A stretch of DNA of 24,243 bases from an uncultured bacterium (GTDB taxonomy: Bacteria > Patescibacteriota > CALEFQ01), in contig CALEFQ010000059.1 of NCBI GenBank assembly GCA_937877125.1, forward strand, positions 1 through 24,243, written 5' to 3'. Each line of letters starts with the position of its first letter. Position 1 is the stretch's first letter. Positions 3,325 to 23,933 of this stretch are shown here, in pieces. Under the pieces are notes generated by a model. That model was not told where the DNA came from. It searched no databases and saw nothing but the letters and a program-made list of their open reading frames with translations. A program made the translations under genes and the position numbers.

Positions 3325-3774
3325 ATGTTTGGTAAAAAAACAAAGGAACAAAACAATATGACCGAAGAAAAAAAGATTATTCCGAAAGCCGCCGGCACTG
3401 ATGAAAAAAAAGAGGAATGGCTAGAGACTCAGGAAGAAACAGAAGGACAGTTGACCCTAGATGTCTTCCAAGACGCCGATAATATTGTTATCAAGTCGAC
3501 GATTGCCGGGGTGCGCCCGGAGGACTTGGATATCTCGATTAATAATGACATGCTGACGATCAAGGGAGAGCGGCGCAAAGAAGAAACCGTAAAAGAAGAC
3601 GATTATTTTTACCAGGAGTGTTACTGGGGCGCTTTTTCCCGGTCGGTGATTTTGCCGATGGAAGTGGAAGCCGACAAAATTGAAGCCCTGCTGAAAGACG
3701 GTGTCTTGACGATAAAGTTGCCGAAATCGCGCAAAGCCAAGGCGCGGAAAATCCAGGTTAAGGCTGGCATGTAA
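3325..3774 (+). CDS. small heat-shock protein, Hsp20/alpha-crystallin family
   Basis: 149 residues, typical for the family. Hsp20 proteins are ATP-independent chaperones that hold unfolding proteins in the cytoplasm. A Lys/Glu-rich N-terminal arm of about 40 residues precedes the alpha-crystallin domain (about 43-140). Recognisable elements are LTLDVFQD, the GVRPEDLDISI strand, LTIKGER, the aromatic YWGAFSRSVILP segment and the hallmark GVLTIKLPK. A short C-terminal tail carries an I-x-V motif (IQV), the usual oligomer contact. ATG 3325 lacks a Shine-Dalgarno sequence. The in-frame ATG at 3358 has AAGGA about 10 bases upstream and is a possible alternative start. The gene has its own promoter and terminator and sits directly before clpC, forming a heat-shock pair. 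Confidence 0.93.
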   Translation: MFGKKTKEQNNMTEEKKIIPKAAGTDEKKEEWLETQEETEGQLTLDVFQDADNIVIKSTIAGVRPEDLDISINNDMLTIKGERRKEETVKEDDYFYQECYWGAFSRSVILPMEVEADKIEALLKDGVLTIKLPKSRKAKARKIQVKAGM

Positions 3775-4073: not shown

Positions 4074-6785
4074 ATGTTATGCCAATCTTGCGGGTCTAGG
4101 CCCGCGACGGTCAAAATCAGGCAAACTATCAACGGGCGTCCCAGCGAGGTCCATTTATGCTACACCTGCGCCCAGCAACATAATGTTTTCGGTGGCGGCG
4201 CTCGTTCGCTATTTGATAATTTTTTCGGCGGCTCCACCGGCGGTGATCCTTTTTTTGGCGACGCTATCGGGCGCAGTTATCGTCCGCGCCAGGAGATAAA
4301 CCTGGTTGATTACTTTTCGGAGCGAGCCAAAAAAGTCGTTTCCAGCGCCGCGCAAAAAGCAAATGAGATCGGAGCCAAGACGGTCGACACCGAGCATTTG
4401 CTTTGGGGTGTCAGTGAAGAGGAAGAGATGGGCCAAAAGTTATTGTCCAAGCTGGGCATCAAGACAAACGAACTGCAAGGCTATCTGGATGAGAACATGC
4501 CGTCTTCGGAAAAAGAAGAGGAAGACGAACCGGTCGAGGAAAAAATGCAAATGGTTGATTTTACCCCGCGTGCCAAAAAAGTTTTTGAATTGGCTTTTCG
4601 GCTCTCCCGCGAGCTGGGGCACCAATATATCGGCTCGGAACACATCTTATTGGGCTTGATCGCCGAGGGAGAAGGCATGGCCGCGCAGACGCTTCAAAAA
4701 TACGGCATTACCTTGGAAAAAGCCCAAAAGGCCGTGGCCGGCGCCGTCGGCTTAGGTAAAAAAGAGGCGGGTGGCCCTAAAACGGAAAGCCAGACCCCGA
4801 CTCTCGACAAGTACAGCCGCGATTTGACCGACATGGCCAAGGAAGGCAAGCTCGATCCGGTGATTGGGCGGGCCAAAGAAGTCGCCCGGGTCATTCAGGT
4901 TTTATCGCGACGGACAAAAAATAACCCGGTTCTGATCGGGGAGCCGGGGGTCGGCAAGACCGCGATTGCCGAAGGTTTGGCCCAGCGCATCATAGCCAAT
5001 AATATTCCCGAGACCCTCAAAGACAAGCGGGTGGTGGCCTTGGATATTTCCGGGATGGTAGCCGGCACCAAATACCGCGGTGAATTCGAAAAACGGCTGA
5101 AAAAGTCTTTGGAAGAAATCGAAGCGACCAAAGGCAAGATAGTTCTATTTATCGACGAACTTCATACCCTGGTCGGAGCAGGCGGTTCAGAAGGGGCTAT
5201 CGACGCTTCGAATATCCTGAAACCGGCTTTAGCGCGGGGACAATTGCAGGCCATCGGGGCGACGACCCTGAATGAATACAAAAAATATATCGAAAAGGAT
5301 GCGGCCTTTGAGCGCCGTTTCCAGCCGGTTCTAGTCGACGAGCCGACGGTCAACGACACCATTGCCATTCTTCGAGGATTACGTGATAAGTACGAAGCCC
5401 ACCACAAAACAACTATTTCCGATGAGGCAATCGTGGCCGCGGCTTCTCTGTCGGCCCGATATATTAAAGACCGTTTTCTACCCGATAAGGCGATTGATCT
5501 AATTGACGAGGCGGCTTCCAAAATCAGGATCCAATCGCTGGAAGCGCCGGTGGAACTCAAGAAACTGGAAAAGCAGATCCGAGATGCGGAAAAAGAACGG
5601 CAAGCGGCCCAACGCAACCGCCGAAAAGTAGCCGAGCTGACCAAAAGCATCAAAAAAATGGCCGAGCGTCGGAAAGAGCTGGATGTGACTTGGCGCAAGG
5701 ACAAAGCGACCGGCCAGCCGACTGTTTTGGCTAGTGATATTGAAAAACTGGTTTCGGAATGGACCGGTATCCCGGTCGCCCAACTGGCTGAAGAAGAAGT
5801 CAATAAGCTTTTGAAATTGGAAGAGCGGTTGCACCAGCGGGTGATCGGGCAAAATGCCGCCGTCAAGGCGGTGGCGGAAGCGGTGCGCCGCGGTCGCGCC
5901 GGACTCAAAGATCCCGCCCGTCCCATCGGCTCGTTCATTTTCCTCGGTCCGACCGGAGTTGGCAAAACCGAGCTGGCCAAGGCACTGGCCGAACAGGTTT
6001 TCGGCAGCGAGGAAGCGATGATCCGGATTGATATGTCTGAATATATGGAGTCGCACTCGGTCGCCAAATTAACCGGTTCACCTCCCGGTTATGTCGGCCA
6101 TGAAGAAGGCGGCCAGCTGACGGAAAAGGTTCGCCGCAAGCCGTATAGCGTAATTTTACTGGACGAAATAGAAAAAGCCCATCCCGACGTTTTCAATATC
6201 TTGCTTCAGATACTTGATGACGGCCGGCTGACTGACGCCAAGGGGCGCACGGTGGATTTCAAAAACACGATTATCATCGCCACCAGCAATATCGGGTCGC
6301 AGAAAATTCAGGACGCAACTGGTAAAAAAATTGGCTTTGAAGACGGCACCAAGGGCAAGTCTTTGTCCAAAGAAGAACTGCGCGAAGAACTAATGGAAGA
6401 TTTGAAAAAAACTTTCCGGCCGGAGTTTCTTAACCGGGTGGACGAGGTGATTATTTTTGAGGCCCTGTCCCGGGCCGATATCCGGCGAATTGTCGACCTG
6501 TTGGTGGCGGAAGTCCAGCGCCTATTGCGCGGTCAGGATATCGGCTTGGAATTAAACGAAAAGGCCAAGGAAAAAATCGCCGCGGAAGGTTTTGACCCGA
6601 TGTTTGGCGCCCGGCCCCTCAAGCGCCTGATCCAAAAGAAAATCGAAAACCCATTGTCGTTACTTTTACTGGAAGGTAAATACCGGAGCGGGGATCGGGT
6701 TGAGGTCGCTGTCAAAAACAATGAATTCGTCTTTGAAAAGGGCAAGACAAAAAAGAAAGGAAAAGAGCAAGCGGTGACCGCCTAG
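4074..6785 (+). CDS. clpC: ClpC-type AAA+ unfoldase with an N-terminal McsA-like zinc finger
   Basis: 903 residues, about 80 longer than ordinary ClpC. The extra part is an N-terminal zinc finger with Cys3, Cys6, Cys29 and Cys32. It resembles the N-terminus of McsA, including the [10 protein letters not shown] segment. Then come two Clp_N repeats (about 79-145 and 163-225), AAA1 with Walker A GEPGVGKT (289-296) and Walker B Asp361-Glu362, a coiled M-domain (about 490-540), and AAA2 with Walker A GPTGVGKT (625-632) and Walker B Asp697-Glu698. An IGF loop at 753-755 matches the ClpP-docking loop, so it should feed unfolded proteins to ClpP in the cytoplasm. Expression is under CIRCE. There is no Shine-Dalgarno sequence; ATG 4074 is chosen because it begins the zinc finger. 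No ctsR, mcsA or mcsB genes are adjacent. Confidence 0.95.
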
Positions 6786-6786
6786 G

Positions 6787-6828
6787 AAGATCTAAGATCT
6801 AAGATCTAAGGTTTAAGAAATAAGAATA
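6787..6828 (+). repeat. heptamer array after clpC
   Basis: Six consecutive 7-mers beginning with AAG: AAGATCT three times (6787-6807), then AAGGTTT, AAGAAAT and AAGAATA. It starts one base after the clpC stop codon (6783-6785) and ends just before the terminator stem. Confidence 0.85.
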
Positions 6829-6830
6829 AA

Positions 6831-6860
6831 AAAAGTCCTCTGCGTTGGCAGGGGACTTTT
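6831..6860. terminator. bidirectional terminator between convergent clpC and the 82-aa gene
   Basis: 13-bp stem (6831-6843 with 6848-6860, one G-U pair) and GTTG loop. The stem ends in TTTT on the plus strand, and an A-run precedes it that reads as a T-run on the minus strand. It can end both clpC (+) and the gene at 6889-7137 (-). Confidence 0.85.
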
Positions 6861-6888
6861 GGGGTGGCGACGCGTAAGGCGAGTTTTC

Positions 6889-7137
6889 TTATTCCGTATC
6901 TTTCGGCGGGTCGACCAGTGGTCCTGGTTTCACTCCGTAAGCGGCGTCGGTGACCGGTTGGGCCCGCCGGGTTCCGATCTCGCCCCAGGTCACGTCAAAG
7001 GTGAGATGTCCGCATTCGGGGAATTCTTCAATCAACTGCTGGCAGGCGTTGGCGAGATTTACGGCCTCACGGATCAAATAGCCGTACTTTCCCGTGGTGG
7101 TCCCTAAATCAAGAAAAAAGTACCACTTAAGCGTCAT
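6889..7137 (-). CDS. small hypothetical protein, 82 aa
   Basis: I do not recognise this protein. The minus-strand reading is supported by a consensus Shine-Dalgarno AAGGAGG seven bases before the ATG at 7137 and by a promoter at 7180-7207 on the same strand. A plus-strand frame of the same length (6859-7107) has neither. The product has a hydrophobic/aromatic N-terminus (MTLKWYFFLDLG), a central helix-like region with two Cys, and a Pro-rich acidic tail (PGPLVDPPKDTE). There is no signal peptide and no clear domain. It lies downstream of the HTH-GHKL operon but is separated from it by a terminator, so it is a separate unit in the same Shine-Dalgarno-rich island. Function unknown. Confidence 0.65.
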   Translation of the reverse strand: MTLKWYFFLDLGTTTGKYGYLIREAVNLANACQQLIEEFPECGHLTFDVTWGEIGTRRAQPVTDAAYGVKPGPLVDPPKDTE

Positions 7138-7179
7138 GAGTGTTCCTCCTTTTTAAGTTATTTCTCAAACGGTCGTGTT

Positions 7180-7207
7180 ATTGTAATCAAGCTAGCTAAA
7201 AAGTCAA
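7180..7207 (-). promoter_or_regulatory. promoter of the 82-aa gene
   Basis: On the minus strand: -35 TTGACT (7207-7202), 16-bp spacer, -10 TACAAT (7185-7180). Predicted start near 7173, about 36 nt before the ATG. Confidence 0.6.
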
Positions 7208-7258
7208 GGCGGGGGACTCGCATTTACCAGGATCAAGCCAGCTTGTTGCTCAAAATTA

Positions 7259-7284
7259 AAACCCCAGTTTTTCAACTGGGGTTT
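7259..7284 (-). terminator. terminator of the HTH-GHKL operon
   Basis: Perfect 11-bp stem (AAACCCCAGTT 7259-7269 with AACTGGGGTTT 7274-7284), 4-base loop. On the minus strand it is followed by TTTTAATTTT. It lies 20 bp past the stop of the ATPase gene. Confidence 0.85.
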
Positions 7285-7303
7285 CAGAAGATTTAATTGA
7301 CGG

Positions 7304-8968
7304 CTAGGATGCCGTCCGGCCTCCTCCGGTGTTTAGCCAAATCACCATAACTTCCAGTAAATGATCGGCATAAAACCGTTGTTGCATGGCGAATGACTTA
7401 TCCGGCATCGTTTCCAGGACAATCGCCATCATGGCGATCGTTTCCATCAGCGCGCAGATTTGTCGATCGCTCTTGTCGCAGGCAACCCAATCCGGATGAG
7501 TGATGTTGAAGATCAGGATGCCATTCGTGCGATCCAGGTCCCATAACTTGTTTGATCCGCCGAGGTCGTCATAAGCGAATTGCAAGCCGATGGAATTGTG
7601 GCGAACCGTTTTTCTCGGTTTACCCCGAGGACCTTCGACCGAGAAGGGGACATGATTTTTCTTTTCCTTAGGGGGGCGATTACTTGGGGGCAAGACTTCT
7701 TCGGTTGTTTCTTTCGGTTTGCCGTTTCCTTTGGAAGTTGCCAAGGAAGATTGGTCTTGTTCATCCATTATGTCCTGATCGGACGGCTTGGCGTGTCCGG
7801 TGCCAATGGTGCCGAACTGGAACAGGTTTCGAAGGGAATTCCATAAGGCGTCCGAGTTCCGTAACACGCTAGCCAGATGCTCCAGGGTTTTAAGTCCCAG
7901 GTTCTGGTAGCGCAGGGCGCTGCGCTCTTCTTTTTCTTCTTTCAGATATTTTTTTCCCTGCTGCTGAAACCAGTCGTCGAGACAAGCGCACAGGCCGGCG
8001 ACGGCGTCTCCCTTTTGGAAGCAGTTTCGCTGCGGCGCCAGCCGGACTTTTTCCCCCAGGACTTCCCCTTCGAAAATCCCCGTTTTCAGGGCTTCGGTCA
8101 ATTCCCGAGGCATGATCTCGGCGGCGCTGGACCGGATGAAATTAGGGAACGAAAAACGAAACTTGTTGCCGATTTCGCCGAACTGGACGTTGACCGCTTT
8201 CTTTCTTTGGCTGGGCTTGGTTACGTACAGACGGATGATGACTTCTCCGGCGTCAGAATCAATTGTGCGGAACTCCGGCAGAGGGCGTCCTTGAAAACTG
8301 GAAGCACGTACGTCGCGGCTTTGCTTCTTTCCTTTCTCAATCATGGTGATTTCAATCAGGATTCCCTTTTCCGCCATGATCAGTCCGTATTTGGTTTTGA
8401 TTCCTTGAGAAAGGCTTTCGAAAGTGATTGAAGACAGCGATTGATCGGGCGTGTAGTTGAAGATCGCCACTTGAGTGCGCCACCAGACATTTTGTCCCGA
8501 ACGTGATTGAGAGTTTTCCGGATCAAACAAGAGATTCGTCGAAATCGTTTGCGGAATCTGGAGCTGGTGATGCTGTTGCTTGATCTCTTCCGTGACGAAA
8601 GTCCATTCCAGAAAAGGTTTTTTCCGCGGCGCGGCACATGAAGTGAAGGTGTGTTTCTCACATTTCCCCAGGGGGGAAATTAAGCCGAGTCCGAACCGGC
8701 CCATTTTGTCGGGCGTTTTGATGCCCTTGCCGACAGATTGCAGCGCCTGATGGAAGATCTTTTCCGGGGCGCCGTCGCCGTTATCGCGTACCGAGCAGTA
8801 GCGGGTATCTTTGTTGATCTTGATTTCTATCCGTTGGGCCCCGCAGTCGATCGAGTTCTGGACTTGCTCTTCCACGACATCCTGCAGTGAAGGATAGGCG
8901 CCCGCAAGATGCAAGAGAGCGGCGCCGCGGTGGAGGTCGACGTCCACCATTTGGGTTGGATTAGGCAT
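7304..8968 (-). CDS. GHKL (MutL/MORC/Hsp90-like) ATPase
   Basis: 554 residues. An upstream start at 9019 is possible, but ATG 8968 has a proper AGGAGG five bases before it and is preferred. The GHKL fold is clear: motif I VVEEQVQNSIDCGA with putative catalytic Glu34 and Mg-binding Asn38, in the same spacing as MutL; motif II Asp62-Asn-Gly64-Asp-Gly66; motif III GRFGLGLIS with Gly90, Gly93 and Gly95. There is no HisKA domain, so it is not a histidine kinase. A middle domain (about 200-330) could be the S5-like transducer. A low-complexity charged linker (about 410-465) precedes a C-terminal domain with NGILIFNITHPDW, similar in style to bacterial MORC-like ATPases. MORC/MutL-like bacterial homologs are known beside restriction-modification and conflict genes; that role here is inference. 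It starts two bases after the stop of the HTH gene. Confidence 0.8.
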   Translation of the reverse strand: MPNPTQMVDVDLHRGAALLHLAGAYPSLQDVVEEQVQNSIDCGAQRIEIKINKDTRYCSVRDNGDGAPEKIFHQALQSVGKGIKTPDKMGRFGLGLISPLGKCEKHTFTSCAAPRKKPFLEWTFVTEEIKQQHHQLQIPQTISTNLLFDPENSQSRSGQNVWWRTQVAIFNYTPDQSLSSITFESLSQGIKTKYGLIMAEKGILIEITMIEKGKKQSRDVRASSFQGRPLPEFRTIDSDAGEVIIRLYVTKPSQRKKAVNVQFGEIGNKFRFSFPNFIRSSAAEIMPRELTEALKTGIFEGEVLGEKVRLAPQRNCFQKGDAVAGLCACLDDWFQQQGKKYLKEEKEERSALRYQNLGLKTLEHLASVLRNSDALWNSLRNLFQFGTIGTGHAKPSDQDIMDEQDQSSLATSKGNGKPKETTEEVLPPSNRPPKEKKNHVPFSVEGPRGKPRKTVRHNSIGLQFAYDDLGGSNKLWDLDRTNGILIFNITHPDWVACDKSDRQICALMETIAMMAIVLETMPDKSFAMQQRFYADHLLEVMVIWLNTGGGRTAS

Positions 8969-8970
8969 GA

Positions 8971-9708
8971 TTATTCCTCCTGTTTCTGATTGGCGAGAGC
9001 GCGTGCCCTCTCGCCGCATAGACGCACTAGGGCGTTTTTCAATTCAAACACGGTTGAGCGACCCGATAATTCCCGTAGCAATTCTCGATCCTCCGGGAAA
9101 AAAGCTTCAGAGGCGACAAGTTTCGCCAGAGGCAAGGTCGCCTGGAAGAGATGAGCGAGAAGCGTTATCTGGGTGGGAGGGTCGAGCCTCGGCGCAACGG
9201 TCGACGGGATTCTTTCTGGTGACGGGAAAAAGTTTTCCGGCTTGTCGATCAAACGTGCGAAAGCCAATTTTTCCCGACACCGCCTTTCCCTGGTCTGTAT
9301 TTCTGGCAAATTTTTCTGAAACAAATTCTCGATGATCTGGTTTTTTTTGGCCGAGGTGCCGCCACGGGCGTTGACGAGATAGATGACTGAATCGTGAGTC
9401 AATCCGAGAATTTTGGCGATTTCCGCCACCGTCAACAGGCGAAAAGATAGAAGTGCGGAAATTTGCCGACAGGCTACCGGGGGATTATTTTCTCCGGCCA
9501 GTCGGTAACCAAGTAGTTCCAGCAGAGTATTCAATCTCGCCAGTCTTTCTCCTTTGGGTTGATGTTTTCCTCGGAACCATTCGGCCACTTGCTTCTCCGT
9601 CATGTTCATGAAGTCGGCCGTTTCTGCGCGCAGGCGCAAGAAAGATTTCGGATCAAGTCGTTTCTTGAGGTCCCCTAGGCATTCCAGGGGAGTCATGTTA
9701 TTTGGCAT
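8971..9708 (-). CDS. double helix-turn-helix DNA-binding protein
   Basis: 245 residues from ATG 9708, which has AGGAGGT five bases upstream; an earlier in-frame ATG at 9726 lacks this. Two helix-turn-helix segments are visible: residues about 36-66 (MTEKQVAEWFRGKHQPKGERL, XRE-like) and about 93-117 (LTVAEIAKILGLTHDSVIYLV). The C-terminal 120 residues are charged and helical, with no family I recognise. It is the first gene of a two-gene operon with the GHKL ATPase, whose Shine-Dalgarno lies inside this gene's last codons, so translation is probably coupled. The inverted repeat over the operon's own start site (9754-9772) suggests that this protein represses its own operon. That is inference. 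Confidence 0.75.
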   Translation of the reverse strand: MPNNMTPLECLGDLKKRLDPKSFLRLRAETADFMNMTEKQVAEWFRGKHQPKGERLARLNTLLELLGYRLAGENNPPVACRQISALLSFRLLTVAEIAKILGLTHDSVIYLVNARGGTSAKKNQIIENLFQKNLPEIQTRERRCREKLAFARLIDKPENFFPSPERIPSTVAPRLDPPTQITLLAHLFQATLPLAKLVASEAFFPEDRELLRELSGRSTVFELKNALVRLCGERARALANQKQEE

Positions 9709-9753
9709 ATTTACCTCCTGCTGCATCAGCAGCCGCCGTAAAGTTAAAGAACA

Positions 9754-9772
9754 TTCCTAGAATTATTAGGAA
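9754..9772 (-). promoter_or_regulatory. operator-like inverted repeat at the HTH-GHKL transcription start
   Basis: TTCCTA (9754-9759), 7-base spacer, TAGGAA (9767-9772). It begins about seven bases downstream of the minus-strand -10, over the predicted start site, where a bound repressor would block transcription. The HTH protein encoded by the operon is the obvious candidate ligand. Confidence 0.6.
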
Positions 9773-9778
9773 CTCATA

Positions 9779-9807
9779 AAAATAGTTAAAAATAACCAAT
9801 TTGTCAA
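9779..9807 (-). promoter_or_regulatory. promoter of the HTH-GHKL operon
   Basis: Minus strand -35 TTGACA (9807-9802), 17-bp spacer, -10 TATTTT (9784-9779). Its -35 lies only 6 bp from the -35 of the divergent plus-strand promoter. Confidence 0.7.
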
Positions 9808-9813
9808 GGGATA

Positions 9814-9842
9814 TTGACTTGCTTTTAAATATCTGCTATACT
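9814..9842 (+). promoter_or_regulatory. divergent promoter of the structured leader and 31-aa ORF
   Basis: -35 TTGACT (9814-9819), 17-bp spacer, -10 TATACT (9837-9842). Predicted start near 9849, immediately before the first hairpin. Confidence 0.65.
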
Positions 9843-9850
9843 TATATTAG

Positions 9851-9983
9851 CAAAACGGGTGAACAGCCCGTTTTGTATTTATTAGCCCAAAAAGCTGATA
9901 AAGCCTATTGGCTCGATAAAAATCGGTTAGTAGGTAAAAAAAGACGTCTTAACCACTTTATCTCCAGGATGGGGAGATAAGGT
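9851..9983 (+). other. structured 5' leader with three hairpins (possible regulatory RNA)
   Basis: Hairpin 1: perfect 9-bp stem CAAAACGGG/CCCGTTTTG (9851-9859, 9867-9875) followed by TATTTATT, which could act as an early terminator. Hairpin 2: about 13 bp with one bulge and several G-U pairs (9904-9917 with 9922-9934), AAAA loop. Hairpin 3: 11-bp stem (9955-9965 with 9973-9983). Its 3' arm contains the only purine-rich ribosome-site-like stretch before ATG 9997, so that stretch is paired. I do not recognise a known riboswitch class. Confidence 0.5.
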
Positions 9984-9996
9984 AAAAAAAAACACT

Positions 9997-10092
9997 ATGG
10001 AAAAGATGTATTTCTACAGCTTCCTGGCGTTTGGCGCGTATTGCGTGGGATTAGTCATGGTTAGCGCCATAAATTTTACTTACGGTTTTTAG
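9997..10092 (+). CDS. 31-aa hydrophobic (membrane) peptide
   Basis: ATG at 9997 and TAG at 10090-10092 give a 31-residue product that starts MEKMYFYSFLAFG and ends INFTYGF. Residues 5 to about 27 form one continuous hydrophobic, aromatic-rich stretch long enough to span a membrane. The ORF sits in a compact transcript: promoter at 9814-9842, hairpin-rich leader, ORF, then a terminator-like hairpin at 10114-10147. No strong Shine-Dalgarno sequence precedes it; an AAGG about 14 bases upstream is locked in hairpin 3. The size and structured mRNA resemble type I toxin genes or small membrane stress peptides. That is analogy only, and the ORF could be fortuitous within a non-coding RNA. Confidence 0.45.
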   Translation: MEKMYFYSFLAFGAYCVGLVMVSAINFTYGF

Positions 10093-10113
10093 AGTAGGAT
10101 AAGAATCAAGAAA

Positions 10114-10147
10114 GGCTCCCAGCACCGTGAGGTGTGAGGGGGTTTTT
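10114..10147 (+). terminator. terminator of the 31-aa ORF transcript
   Basis: Imperfect stem: CACC/GGTG around a GTGA loop, a 2x2 internal mismatch, then a C-rich arm pairing with a G-run, followed by TTTTT at 10143-10147. Confidence 0.6.
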
Positions 10148-10153
10148 CTTATT

Positions 10154-10228
10154 AAGGTAAAAGGCAAAGGGCAAAAAGCAAAATATTTTGAGAAAGTTCT
10201 TCTGTGGTTTTGCCTTTTGCCTTTTGCC
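10154..10228 (+). repeat. opposed heptamer arrays upstream of the SPFH gene
   Basis: Left array: AAGGTAA, AAGGCAA, AGGGCAA, AAAGCAA (10154-10181). Right array: TTTTGCC three times (10208-10228). The two are near-complementary and could form a hairpin of about 20 bp around a 26-base loop. The right array also provides the -35 box of the next promoter. Confidence 0.85.
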
Positions 10229-10238
10229 TTGCTATAAT
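10210..10238 (+). promoter_or_regulatory. promoter of the SPFH/Tim44-like operon
   Basis: -10 TATAAT (10233-10238). At the ideal 17-bp spacing lies TTGCCT (10210-10215), which is part of the heptamer array. Predicted start near 10245, giving a leader of about 45 nt. Confidence 0.55.
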
Positions 10239-10289
10239 ATCACTGGCAAACCGTCGTTTGTCGTTTAAACCAACTTAAAATCAAAAACC

Positions 10290-11285
10290 ATGGGTGAACT
10301 ACTACAAAATATAACCTGGACTACCCAGTCGCCGGACATTTTGGTCTGGCGTTTTCCCGATCCGGACCAGATTTTACAAACGCGCTCCTCGGTCATTATC
10401 GGTCCCGGCCAAGCGCTTCTATTTGTTAACGAGGGCGTGCCGCAGGGAATTTGGGACAAGCCCGGCCGGACGGACATCAAAACGGCCAATATTCCTCTGC
10501 TGACTTCCATGCTTTCTATTTTCCGGGGGTTTGAGAGCAAGCACAAAGGGAAGATTTTCTATTTCAATATGAATGACATCCCCAATATCAAGTGGGGGAC
10601 AAAAGCGCCGCTGAAATACGCCGACCCAATTTACAAATTTCCCGTCGGGATGCGTGCTTTCGGCAACTATACCTTGAAAATTACTGATCCGATGAAGTTC
10701 TTCACTGAATTTGTCGGCGATCGCGACGCGATGACGACTACGGAATTCAAGGAAGTCATCAATGGGCGCATTCACACTCCGATTACTGACGCTTTGGCCA
10801 CGGCTAAATACGGGTTTACCGAAATTGATTCCAAGCGGGACGAACTGACCAAGGAAATAAGCGTGAAGATTGCCCAAGAATTCGGCGCGTTCGGCTTCAC
10901 CATGAAAGATTTTCGGATTGAGAGTACTGATTTTGACGAAGCGACCCAAGCGCGGGTCAATACCATTGCTGATTCTCAAGCCAAAGCCCAAGCGATTGGT
11001 GCCTTAGGCGGAGTTGATCAGACCGCTATGAAGAATTACCAGACCGCCGAACAATTAGCCGCTCTCAATAAAGCTGCCGCCAACGAGGGCGGGGGCGCTG
11101 GTGGCGCGGTGGGCGCCGGAGTTGGCCTCGGTGCCGGCGTGGGGCTGGGGAGTATGATGGCCCAGGGAATGCAACAAAATCAGCGGACGCCCCAACAACC
11201 GGCGGTCAGCGCGATTTGTGCCGCATGTAAAAAACCAATGGCGGCCGGGAGCAAGTTTTGTCCGATCTGTGGGGCAAAGCAATAA
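10290..11285 (+). CDS. SPFH-domain protein with C-terminal zinc ribbon (YdjI / virion-core-like)
   Basis: 331 residues. The N-terminal 210 residues match the SPFH family annotated as virion core protein-like, with Bacillus YdjI as the known relative: PDILVWRFPDP near the start, SSVIIGPGQALLFVNEG, FPVGMRAFGNYTLKITDP and a late helix. A Gly/Ala-rich low-complexity linker (about 258-300) leads to a zinc ribbon at the C-terminus with two CxxC pairs (CAAC and CPIC). SPFH proteins form membrane-associated assemblies, and Bacillus ydj genes respond to membrane stress. There is no transmembrane helix, so membrane recruitment would need a partner, plausibly the Tim44-like membrane protein encoded 27 bp downstream. 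No Shine-Dalgarno sequence is visible. The family call is good; the role here is inferred. Confidence 0.85.
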   Translation: MGELLQNITWTTQSPDILVWRFPDPDQILQTRSSVIIGPGQALLFVNEGVPQGIWDKPGRTDIKTANIPLLTSMLSIFRGFESKHKGKIFYFNMNDIPNIKWGTKAPLKYADPIYKFPVGMRAFGNYTLKITDPMKFFTEFVGDRDAMTTTEFKEVINGRIHTPITDALATAKYGFTEIDSKRDELTKEISVKIAQEFGAFGFTMKDFRIESTDFDEATQARVNTIADSQAKAQAIGALGGVDQTAMKNYQTAEQLAALNKAAANEGGGAGGAVGAGVGLGAGVGLGSMMAQGMQQNQRTPQQPAVSAICAACKKPMAAGSKFCPICGAKQ

Positions 11286-11312: not shown

Positions 11313-12290
11313 ATGAAGAAAAAATATCTATTTACCATCCTGGTGGTTGCTTGTTTGGCGGTGGTCTTGTCTGGAAGCTTGATTGCGCAACAAGTCGGCG
11401 CGCGGGCCGGCGGCGGCCAAGATTACGTCCCGTCATCCGGGGGGTTTTCTTCCGGAAGTTCTGATTTTGATTTCGGTTCTTCCAGTTCCTCTAGCGGTTA
11501 TTCGAGCGGAGGTGGCTCATTCGGCTGGGGCGGAATTGTCGGTTTAATAGTTTTCATCGTCATTATTATCGTGATTTCGACAGTGGTTCGAAAAGCCCGC
11601 CGCGGCGGCGGGGGCGGAGCAGGTCGCCCGGCCGGCGGAGCCGGTCCCGGCATGACGATGTATATCGGCGGAGTACCGATTAACCTGGGCGGACAGGGAG
11701 GGACGCCGGTGCCGTCGATGCCGCTGGCCAATGTGCAGGCGGAACTGACGCGTCTTCAGCAAAAAGATCCGGCTTTCAACGAGCAAGCCTTTAAGGATTA
11801 CGCCCAAAACGCTTTCTACAAAATTCAGGAAGCTTGGGAAAGCCAGAATCTCCAGATTGGCCGTCCCTTCATGACCGATCAGCTGATGCAACGTTATGCC
11901 ACCCAAATTAGTGATATTCAGTCGCGCGGCGAGAAAAATATTTTGGAAAACATGGTGCTAGGGCATATGAACATCACTAATATCCGGACCGATAACGCCT
12001 ACGATTATATTACTCTGCAAATGGACGCTAGCGCGGCTGATTATACAGTTGATCGCAACGGTAAATTTATGCGCGGTAGCAAGACCCCGCAGCATTTTAC
12101 CGAATACTGGACTTTCCTGAGAAAAGTCACGGCCAAGACAAATGTGAAGAAAAGCGTCAAGGCGAATGTCTGTCCGAATTGCGGCGCCCCTTTGCAATTA
12201 TCGGCCACCGGGCAATGCCAATACTGCAATGCGGTCGTGACCAGTGGCGAATGGGACTGGGTCTTGAGCGAAATTACACAGGCGCGATAA
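11313..12290 (+). CDS. Tim44-like domain membrane protein with C-terminal zinc ribbon
   Basis: 325 residues. An N-terminal signal or anchor helix (about 5-27) is followed by a Gly/Ser-rich extracytoplasmic stretch (35-68), a second strong membrane helix (about 72-90, rich in Ile/Val) and a Gly-rich basic linker. A Tim44-like domain (about 130-280) then contains QNAFYKIQEAWESQN and ends in the EYWTFLRKV strand. The tail carries a zinc ribbon with CPNC and CQYC. Bacterial Tim44-like zinc-ribbon proteins are poorly characterised. By topology the domain and ribbon are probably cytoplasmic. It lies in an operon with the SPFH protein, with an AGAGGA ribosome site; both proteins end in zinc ribbons, suggesting a shared membrane-associated complex (inference). 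Confidence 0.8.
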   Translation: MKKKYLFTILVVACLAVVLSGSLIAQQVGARAGGGQDYVPSSGGFSSGSSDFDFGSSSSSSGYSSGGGSFGWGGIVGLIVFIVIIIVISTVVRKARRGGGGGAGRPAGGAGPGMTMYIGGVPINLGGQGGTPVPSMPLANVQAELTRLQQKDPAFNEQAFKDYAQNAFYKIQEAWESQNLQIGRPFMTDQLMQRYATQISDIQSRGEKNILENMVLGHMNITNIRTDNAYDYITLQMDASAADYTVDRNGKFMRGSKTPQHFTEYWTFLRKVTAKTNVKKSVKANVCPNCGAPLQLSATGQCQYCNAVVTSGEWDWVLSEITQAR

Positions 12291-18154: not shown

Positions 18155-18607
18155 TTAATATTGATATTTTGATGGCTTAGTCTTCGGTTTAGCCTTTTCC
18201 TCTTTCCCGCGAGCGTATGCGTTTTTATTAGCCCGACGAGCGGTTATCGGGTCAACTTGGTGGCGGATTTTCGGTTCCGGGTGATCGCGGTGGTTTGATA
18301 ATTCCTGTTGCAACCGGGTTATTTTTTCCAGGCGACTTTCTTCCTCAAGCGCCGATTCCGCCTGATCAGATTTTCCTTTTTTGGCGTCGTTATTAACCGA
18401 TTCTTTCTTTTTCAGCAAAGCTTCTAATTGGTCAGATATTCTTTTCCTCTCTGGTCCGGAGATATCGAGCTGTTCAATTTTAGTTTTCAATTCAGTCGCT
18501 TTATCAGGATTAATCTCCCCCCTTTTGTCCAGGAATTCATTTTTTGCTTCAGAAGGATAGCTCGGCGTGGCTCGCCAGATGCCGCCTTCCATGGTTCGTC
18601 GGGACAT
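18155..18607 (-). CDS. hypothetical charged coiled-coil protein
   Basis: 150 residues, unrecognised. The start at 18607 is chosen as the first ATG; a second at 18592 is possible, and neither has a Shine-Dalgarno sequence. The protein is rich in Glu, Lys, Arg and Gln, without Cys and without a membrane or signal segment. Helical, coiled-coil-prone stretches lie at about 35-70 and 85-108, and a strongly basic tail ends the protein (KAKPKTKPSKYQY). Such proteins are often nucleic-acid or ribosome associated, but nothing here proves it. It is followed after 10 bp by the 2TM gene. Confidence 0.55.
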   Translation of the reverse strand: MSRRTMEGGIWRATPSYPSEAKNEFLDKRGEINPDKATELKTKIEQLDISGPERKRISDQLEALLKKKESVNNDAKKGKSDQAESALEEESRLEKITRLQQELSNHRDHPEPKIRHQVDPITARRANKNAYARGKEEKAKPKTKPSKYQY

Positions 18608-18659
18608 ATTTTTGAGGTTAATTATTTCATTTTACCAAAAATTTATTGTTTCGTCGAGG

Positions 18660-18688
18660 TTTACAAAAACTGGCATCATTGCTATACT
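18660..18688 (+). promoter_or_regulatory. promoter of the MazG-like gene
   Basis: -35 TTTACA (18660-18665), 17-bp spacer, -10 TATACT (18683-18688) preceded by TGC (extended -10). Leader of about 30 nt. Confidence 0.75.
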
Positions 18689-18723
18689 GCATTGTTTCGC
18701 AACGCCATGAAAGGAGGTTCATG

Positions 18724-19434
18724 ATGAAATCTTTAGAGAGGTGGATGATATTCTTCTGGAATCTGTATGGACAGCGTAATCGCTTTTATCTGCCCAGTTT
18801 GGAAAAGCGTTTGGCTTTTCTGAACTTGGCGATTGGCGACTGGGAGACAGCTTGGCGGAAGGAAGTCGGCTCGTATCGGCAGGGGATTGCCTTAAGTCGG
18901 ATTTTTACTCGCATTTTCTGCCTGGCCGAGTTCCTTGATCTAAATTATTTGTCGGCGATGGCGCTCAAATATCCGCAGACCGGCTGCGCTTACTGTGGGC
19001 AGCTGCCGTGCGTTTGTCGGGAGAGGCGGGCTGACCCTCGGCTGGAAACGATCGCGGGATTGGTTCAAGCCAATTGGACGATCGGGGTCTGGGCGAATCA
19101 TCTGGCGGCGGTATATGGGCAAAAGAACGCGGCCCAGGGCATGAATTACCTGACCGGGCGTCTTTTCCGGGAATCTTGCGAAATCCAGTCGCTGTTCATG
19201 GACAATGAGGGCCTTGGCCGGCTGACTTTGCTCGAACAGCAACTAGCCGCGGCTCTTGAACTTTCCGATCTGACGGCCTGGTCATTGGGAATTATGACTT
19301 TGGCCAACATCGACTTGGAAGTAGTTTTTACAACGCGTTTCCGCGACGCCTGCTGGAAATGCGGCCAGAATCCCTGCCAATGCACGGTTTTCAACATGAA
19401 ACCGGTTGATTGGGAAAACTATTCCACTAATTGA
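18724..19434 (+). CDS. tandem MazG-like protein with two CxxC-x4-CxC zinc knuckles
   Basis: 236 residues. Shine-Dalgarno AAGGAGG (18711-18717) favours ATG 18724 over the adjacent ATG 18721. The all-helical protein has two similar halves. Each ends in a MazG-like helix (LAEFLDLNYLS, LANIDLEVV) and an identically spaced Cys cluster: Cys88, 91, 96, 98 and Cys210, 213, 218, 220, each with CGQ-x-PC. The same C-terminal knuckle is familiar from MazG-like proteins. MazG enzymes hydrolyse NTPs to NMP and pyrophosphate, using ExxE(12-28)ExxD. The second half has Glu150-x-x-Glu153 and Glu179-x-x-Asp182, which fit. The first half lacks a clear equivalent and may be a structural copy. Substrate and activity are unproven. 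Confidence 0.65.
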   Translation: MKSLERWMIFFWNLYGQRNRFYLPSLEKRLAFLNLAIGDWETAWRKEVGSYRQGIALSRIFTRIFCLAEFLDLNYLSAMALKYPQTGCAYCGQLPCVCRERRADPRLETIAGLVQANWTIGVWANHLAAVYGQKNAAQGMNYLTGRLFRESCEIQSLFMDNEGLGRLTLLEQQLAAALELSDLTAWSLGIMTLANIDLEVVFTTRFRDACWKCGQNPCQCTVFNMKPVDWENYSTN

Positions 19435-22961: not shown

Positions 22962-22990
22962 TTGCCAGAAACGGAAAAATCCGGTATAAT
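22962..22990 (+). promoter_or_regulatory. promoter of the 303-aa membrane protein gene
   Basis: -35 TTGCCA (22962-22967), 17-bp spacer, -10 TATAAT (22985-22990). Confidence 0.7.
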
Positions 22991-23021
22991 TGACCTAAAC
23001 ACAAATTTAAAACAAAAACAT

Positions 23022-23933
23022 ATGAGCAAGTTCTGGCAATATTTCAAGGTGGGTCGGAAAGATCGCCCCCTGTGGTTTATTGATGCCAAATGGATCTGCG
23101 GGATTTTTTTCGTGCTGGTTTTTTCGACGACCCTGGCGTTGTATAACGTGATGCAGCTGACTGATCGGGAGCGGGCGGTGGAAGTGATTACGGTAGCGAT
23201 CGAGAAATCATTGTCCAAGGCGGAAGGAAGTATCCAAAACTTGATTTCCGATTACAAGGATGAATTGGCGGCGCGATCCGAGGAACAAGACGTTGCCGAA
23301 CCGGCGGCCGAAACCCGGCCGATCGTTAAACTCTTAAATTCTTTTTTTCCGGAAACGGAAATTTTGACTTCATCGCCCGAACAACTCAAAACCAAACTAC
23401 TGCAAAATATTGCCGTGCCGGTCTACGAAAACGGCACCAGCGCGGTTTTTACGATGTTGCGCGGCCTGGATTACGCCAAGTATCTTGATGAGGGCCTGCA
23501 GTCTTTCAAAATCTATTCCGACGAGACTCACCAGCAATTACAGGCTAGTTTCGGCGTCAGCTTGGCTGTTTCTCTGATCTGTTTGCTGGGATTGATTTAT
23601 TTCAGCTGTGGTTGGGGCAAGCTCTTGTCGCCGGGACTGGTGATCCTCCTGGCTAGCACGCCCGGTTATTTTTCGTATAATGTCGCGCATAGTTTTGTCG
23701 TCGATTTGCTGCCGACCCTGGTCACCGAGGGCGCCAATATGTTTATGGATATTTTAGTGGTGGCCGTGATCCAAACCGTGGAGAGGAATATGGGCGCCGT
23801 GGCGACTTTCCATATCACGTTCTTTTATATCGGACTGGGTTTGGTTATCGCGGCTTTGTCTGGTCTTATTTACCAGCGGATCAAAAAGAAACAAGCCTTT
23901 TCCCAACCTGCTGTGCCGCCAGTTAAATCTTAA
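23022..23933 (+). CDS. hypothetical membrane protein, 303 aa
   Basis: I do not recognise the family. ATG 23022 is chosen because the earlier in-frame ATG at 22962 overlaps the promoter. A short basic N-terminus leads to one membrane helix (about 25-43). Next comes an acidic extracytoplasmic region of about 140 residues with helical stretches, then three more hydrophobic helices near 185-205, 212-235 and 275-295, and a basic Lys-rich end. This gives four helices with both ends probably inside. No catalytic motif is visible. It is a single-gene unit with its own promoter and terminator, divergent from the sensor kinase gene. No Shine-Dalgarno sequence is present. Confidence 0.7.
   Translation: MSKFWQYFKVGRKDRPLWFIDAKWICGIFFVLVFSTTLALYNVMQLTDRERAVEVITVAIEKSLSKAEGSIQNLISDYKDELAARSEEQDVAEPAAETRPIVKLLNSFFPETEILTSSPEQLKTKLLQNIAVPVYENGTSAVFTMLRGLDYAKYLDEGLQSFKIYSDETHQQLQASFGVSLAVSLICLLGLIYFSCGWGKLLSPGLVILLASTPGYFSYNVAHSFVVDLLPTLVTEGANMFMDILVVAVIQTVERNMGAVATFHITFFYIGLGLVIAALSGLIYQRIKKKQAFSQPAVPPVKS

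Follow-up and report, generated by a model that had tools for sequence, protein, structure and literature searches.

The operon and its two proteins

Positions 7304-9708 of contig CALEFQ010000059.1, a 24,243-nucleotide (nt) stretch of DNA from an uncultured member of the Patescibacteriota (referred to in its entirety as the window), carry two genes on the minus strand, the first (9708-8971) coding for a protein with two helix-turn-helix (HTH) regions and the second (8968-7304) for an ATPase of the GHKL superfamily. The gap between the genes is 2 nt, AGGAGG is found upstream of both start codons and a 13-bp hairpin follows the ATPase gene (Table 1), in agreement with an earlier note on this DNA that had described a two-gene operon closed by a terminator. 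A diverged copy of both genes was located in a phage contig, which bears out the coupling of the ATPase to a double-HTH protein that was also claimed there and argues for a real two-protein module.

Table 1. Features of the ATPase/HTH operon in the window
Feature	Position	Strand	Basis or remark
Candidate sigma-70-type promoter of the operon, TTGACA-17-TATTTT	9779..9807	-	consensus scan, 10/12 matches
Ribosome-binding site AGGAGG of the HTH gene	9714..9719	-	sequence
Two-HTH protein P0002, 245 aa, first gene	8971..9708	-	
First HTH region, about residues 20-66, Cro/CI-like	9511..9651	-	HTH_3 E 1.9e-4, model
Second HTH region, about residues 78-117	9358..9477	-	
Conserved C-terminal domain, residues 175-238, proposed ATPase-binding part	8995..9186	-	family conservation
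Ribosome-binding site AGGAGG of the ATPase gene, within the HTH gene end	8976..8981	-	sequence
GHKL ATPase P0001, 554 aa, second gene	7304..8968	-	
GHKL ATP-binding domain, residues 1-135	8564..8968	-	HATPase_c_3 42.9 bits
S5-like transducer region and start of long helix, residues 136-348	7925..8563	-	
Variable polar linker, residues 395-440	7649..7786	-	mean pairwise identity 0.19, low model confidence (pLDDT)
Conserved C-terminal domain, residues 441-554, W..D...G.L.FN..HP.W	7307..7648	-	identity 0.46 in 441-500
Intrinsic terminator hairpin, 13 bp, strong, closes the operon	7257..7286	-	absent from pattern-scan listing

The metagenomic relatives of the ATPase (P0001) numbered 61, all of which matched HATPase_c_3 and thereby belong to the GHKL superfamily, and the catalytic residues (N-box E/N, DxGxG and GxxGxG-type motifs) were intact in 61/61 aligned rows. 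The protein contains a GHKL+S5 module, for which MORC2, SMCHD1, Hsp90 and MutL were tied as the nearest structures. A HisKA/DHp phospho-acceptor domain was absent from P0001 in Pfam searches at E up to 10, which rules out the histidine kinase of a two-component system, and the full-length MutL model TIGR00585 reached only 30.8 bits (cut-off 180) in a match limited to residues 29-75. The description of an intact MutL/MORC-type ATPase with neither a kinase nor a classical MutL tail was therefore upheld, as was that of a C-terminal domain of its own: this domain is conserved, with N488 present in 61/61, H491 in 58/61 and P492 in 57/61 rows, and is without a significant sequence match in either Pfam or PDB (best PDB E 0.37).

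In the HTH protein (P0002), the first HTH region is supported by a sequence match between the family profile (A4) and the P22 c2 repressor (E 0.003). Across the family, mean pairwise identity was highest in the C-terminal domain (0.61, compared to 0.48, 0.44 and 0.38 in the remaining segments), and the C-terminus carries a near-invariant LCGE.AR, with P0002 ending in LCGERAR. Conservation of this domain above that of the HTHs suggests constraint on a surface that contacts a partner or serves oligomerisation, and the domain may be the part that binds the ATPase.

A second locus in a phage contig

The second copy lies in IMG/VR contig 3300037264_009892 (32,125 bases), which encodes a 623-aa ATPase (positions 9866-11737 of L002) with 29% identity to P0001 over residues 10-500. 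A 224-aa HTH protein with a GTG start at 11742 follows 4 nt downstream, the gene order thus being swapped compared to the window (ATPase first), with the spacing still only a few bases. Whole-length BLASTP of the two HTH proteins gave 25% identity (E 6e-16); the C-terminal domains were 48% identical over 56 residues (E 8e-14, 50.1 bits, the best of 200 shuffles reaching 19.6 bits) and the N-terminal parts 22% identical. Because both genes adjoin in this second locus despite the swapped order, and because the HTH family is rare in the database, the two proteins appear to work together; a chance operon is ruled out by the second locus carrying both genes.

The contig, of which 20 and 10 open reading frames (ORFs) were scanned with PHROGs and Pfam, encodes a head-tail adaptor (phrog_211, E 4.9e-16), a phage-type metallophosphoesterase, a phage-type endonuclease and a tail-fibre-like protein (E 7.8e-31, a match arising partly via collagen-like repeats), and on account of these genes it is taken to be a fragment of a tailed phage or prophage. 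No phrog_2, presumably the large terminase (the database label for phrog_2 is '-'), was found in the contig. A separate observation concerns an LDxLAxI-like tail motif common to many small, otherwise dissimilar phage ORFs, for example at 758-1036, 3437-3736, 5141-5692, 9025-9426 and 13114-13605 of L002 and at 7899-8378 (minus) of L013 (IMG/VR 3300037264_009892). The motif was present in the last 30 residues of 11/21 ORFs compared to 0.27% of shuffled proteins, with ORFs and pattern picked post hoc and not blind; a common tag for docking or sorting is one possible role.

A single-sequence search with the HTH protein retrieved two relatives only (96% and 80%), while the profile with the phage homolog included retrieved 11. 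Alignment A4 comprises 12 HTH rows, with P0064 (96%) left out; P0066 is the phage HTH gene from another assembly, identical from residue 2 onward. The profile search and co-occurrence check that had been suggested for the pair thus yielded 61 ATPase and 11 HTH relatives and the pair in two loci; no hit of the one family had its longest contig in common with a hit of the other, and no defence island was apparent among the window proteins scanned. As the second copy resides in a phage contig, the pair is not restricted to one lineage at a fixed housekeeping locus.

Searches in other collections returned few matches. Among plasmids, tblastn gave none for P0001, P0070 or P0061, and none was found for positions 6500-10500 as DNA. 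Among phage records, P0001 matched only rIIA of four Rhizobium phages (16% covered, E 5e-3 or weaker), P0061 only two short Listeria phage records (15% covered, E 5e-3) and P0070 only one Klebsiella phage (23%, E 0.1). In the IMG/VR scans, several of which matched nothing, the contig described above was the sole match. A single-sequence query of GTDB contigs gave one match, in Anaerobacterium, which was limited to residues 28-74 and is not a family member (best E 3.5e-6). Cellular genomes of one phylum, in overlapping sets, gave 0/21 (E 1e-20), 0/40 relatives (1e-10) and 0/398 (1e-20), numbers that show little for want of a cellular positive control known to carry the family; the phage record itself was detected at 3.8e-127.

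Relation to known GHKL systems

The top-ranked papers in the literature searched held no description of this ATPase/HTH pair, and apart from the GHKL domain none of Pfam, NCBIfam, PADLOC and PHROGs places its homologs in a named system. The pair is therefore apparently undescribed, though of a known general kind, i.e. a GHKL ATPase with a DNA-binding partner. The ATPase combines a GHKL domain with an S5-fold domain, as do the members of the MORC/paraMORC radiation (Iyer et al. 2008), and MORC2, MORC3 and MORC4 were among its top structural matches. The motif given as MORC-defining in PMC2292703, GhXhhpXXRhl in the S5 domain, was found in 0/61 ATPase rows (chance rate in shuffles 0.0095), and its absence rules out MORC proper. 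MORCs and paraMORC1-5 are moreover described in that source as working mostly with restriction-modification genes, whereas here no helicase, nuclease or methylase lies beside the ATPase and the partner is a two-HTH protein. No restriction-modification neighbourhood was seen in the window proteins, and the phage contig has one phage-type endonuclease with no methylase or helicase.

By sequence, the N-terminal domains of MutL come closest to the ATPase among PDB entries (E 4.9e-8, residues 31-80), but the score far under the TIGR00585 cut-off excludes MutL itself. With the Shedu proteins that contain GHKL (paraMORC3, VcSduA), one of which protects against phages according to PMC12137116, the ATPase shares an N-terminal GHKL ATPase followed by a C-terminal domain of its own; Shedu/paraMORC3 was rejected, as P0001 showed no DUF4263/PD-(D/E)xK match at E up to 10 and the 25 families listed for its 61 relatives do not include one. 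MZA (MzaB) was likewise rejected (NF041932, 18.1 bits with a cut-off of 850).

Two-gene GHKL pairs have been described before, including HEF_HK/Response_reg_2 (PMC8011034) and CapK/CapS, the latter being a kinase (HTH-STAS-GHKL) and a repressor (STAS-wHTH) encoded as a two-gene pair beside immune operons (PMC13373217). The resemblance of CapK/CapS as a GHKL + HTH pair raises the idea that the GHKL protein phosphorylates the HTH protein. This is highly improbable: STAS matches were missing both from the two proteins (E up to 10) and from the list of 25 families obtained for the 61 ATPases, the module present in the ATPase is of the S5 type known from MutL, MORC and Hsp90, and no immune operon follows the pair. 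Membership, which requires STAS in both proteins, is accordingly excluded.

A closer parallel in layout is offered by phage rIIA/rIIB, where a GHKL ATPase gene likewise adjoins the gene of an HTH protein. According to PMC7824862, rIIA combines an N-terminal GHKL ATPase with a C-terminus that varies, and rIIB is classed among the transcription factors; RIIA and RIIB together are reported to overcome RexAB in diverse phages (PMC11879866). The pair could be a functional counterpart, acquired by a bacterial chromosome, of this counter-defence module, and one of its two located copies does sit in a phage. An HTH was recognised at the N-terminus of T4 rIIB (best Pfam E 5.6e-5), and several rIIA models were among the viral structural matches of the ATPase. 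Profiles were compared with T4 rIIA/rIIB, those of nine further phages and one Rhizobium phage rIIA. The GHKL profiles aligned (hhalign probability 96, columns 31-154), but this was the only alignable domain: rIIA and the ATPase C-terminal domain gave a probability of 0.1, and rIIB and the HTH family 3.3 over 25 columns covering the HTH only. Membership of rIIA was rejected for lack of homology beyond the GHKL domain, a weak test given the published variability of rIIA C-termini, and that of rIIB because its conserved C-terminal domain is not matched in the HTH family. With the C-terminal domains of both proteins differing, the counter-defence account is improbable.

Possible functions of the pair

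The earlier note had regarded the pair as a candidate for an undescribed system of defence or DNA management. Its being undescribed holds for the literature searched, while the defence part found no support, no defence island being apparent among the window proteins scanned and the other copy lying in a phage. Pfam assigned the neighbours to ordinary families (histidine kinases, PrsW, Hsp20, ClpC, Band 7, Tim44-like, M23 peptidase, GreA and a sodium/calcium exchanger), and it detected no domain of a nuclease, helicase or methylase in the proteins scanned from the window. In PADLOC, which was run on the pair and ten window neighbours (seven other window ORFs and the phage contig being left out), the pair's sole match was TmtA (E 0.016) on the GHKL part, the HTH protein having none. 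The neighbours matched PDC-M43B, PDC-M37B, DolB, TRIP13, IetA, mad8, DrmD, SduA and PD-T4-6, but only by generic histidine-kinase, receiver and AAA+ domains; in our reading, the proteins hit, which are two histidine kinases, a response regulator and a ClpC-like AAA+ protein, were matched through shared domains. A host anti-phage system in which the ATPase is the effector and the HTH protein senses or regulates would have precedents in VcSduA, whose protection from phage requires its GHKL glutamate (PMC12137116), and in the MORC/paraMORC proteins reported from restriction-modification operons (PMC2292703). Together these data make defence a doubtful account, neither supported nor excluded, and the phage copy is just as compatible with counter-defence, or with control of DNA or transcription, as it is with host defence.

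The HTH protein could also do no more than autoregulate the operon, the ATPase working alone, for example in remodelling proteins or DNA. Operons led by an autorepressor HTH gene are common, the HTH gene comes first here and adjoins the candidate promoter, and its relatives (11) are far fewer than those of the ATPase. The HTH gene is second in the phage contig, however, and its product is better conserved in the C-terminal domain than in the HTHs, which leaves autoregulation a serious but rather unlikely alternative.

The preferred reading, which is tentative, is that the two genes make one DNA-acting module in which an ATP-operated DNA clamp is brought to selected sites by the HTH protein. 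The linked gene pair, the intact active site and the folds are established; by inference, the HTH protein would read DNA sites via its two HTHs and hold the ATPase through its C-terminal domain, and an ATPase dimer would clamp shut on the DNA when ATP binds and open again upon hydrolysis. Target DNA, be it the operon's own promoter or incoming or replicating foreign DNA, would thereby be silenced or compacted locally, and the phage copy would serve the phage's own ends.

Several points weigh against this reading, among them the missing MORC motif. The tie among the nearest structures means that Hsp90-like protein remodelling would suit the modelled fold equally, the HTH matches are under the Pfam cut-offs and the structure model of the HTH protein is only fair. 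Furthermore, the pair was found in two loci only, ATPase relatives outnumber HTH relatives 5-6-fold, and no HTH relative falls between 29% and 80% identity to the window's HTH protein, although ATPases at 40-47% to the window's exist. The HTH partner may evolve faster, so that the word-based search missed it; alternatively, many of the ATPases may lack this partner or use a different one.

It is conceivable, though on balance unlikely, that with this pair bacteria and phages possess a MORC-like machine that works on its own and is targeted by sequence, in which an HTH adaptor loads an ATP-gated clamp for DNA silencing or entrapment without histones, methylation or nucleases, used on both the phage and the host side of their conflict. 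Prokaryotic GHKL-S5 ATPases have so far come mainly from restriction-modification loci, with nucleases or helicases alongside. Consisting of no more than an ATPase and a DNA-binding adaptor, and present in both a phage and a bacterial chromosome-like locus, the pair would offer a simple means of testing what such ATPases alone do to DNA, a question open for MORC proteins and T4 rIIA.

The operon has plus-strand genes on either side, at 4074-6785 for a ClpC-like AAA+ protein and at 10290-11285 for a Band-7 protein. Beyond the hairpin lies a candidate gene, an 82-aa minus-strand ORF (7137-6889) with no family match in Pfam or PADLOC, and three further window ORFs, 18155-18607 (150 aa), 18646-19434 (262 aa) and 22962-23933 (323 aa), matched no significant Pfam family. 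The promoter scan was weak, with 6 sites in a region for which shuffles gave 2.7 (sd 1.7). Each strand has a candidate promoter within 9779-9842 (minus 9807-9779, plus 9814-9842); their -35 boxes overlap, and the GTCAA/TTGAC half-sites around which they lie may be an operator for the HTH protein.
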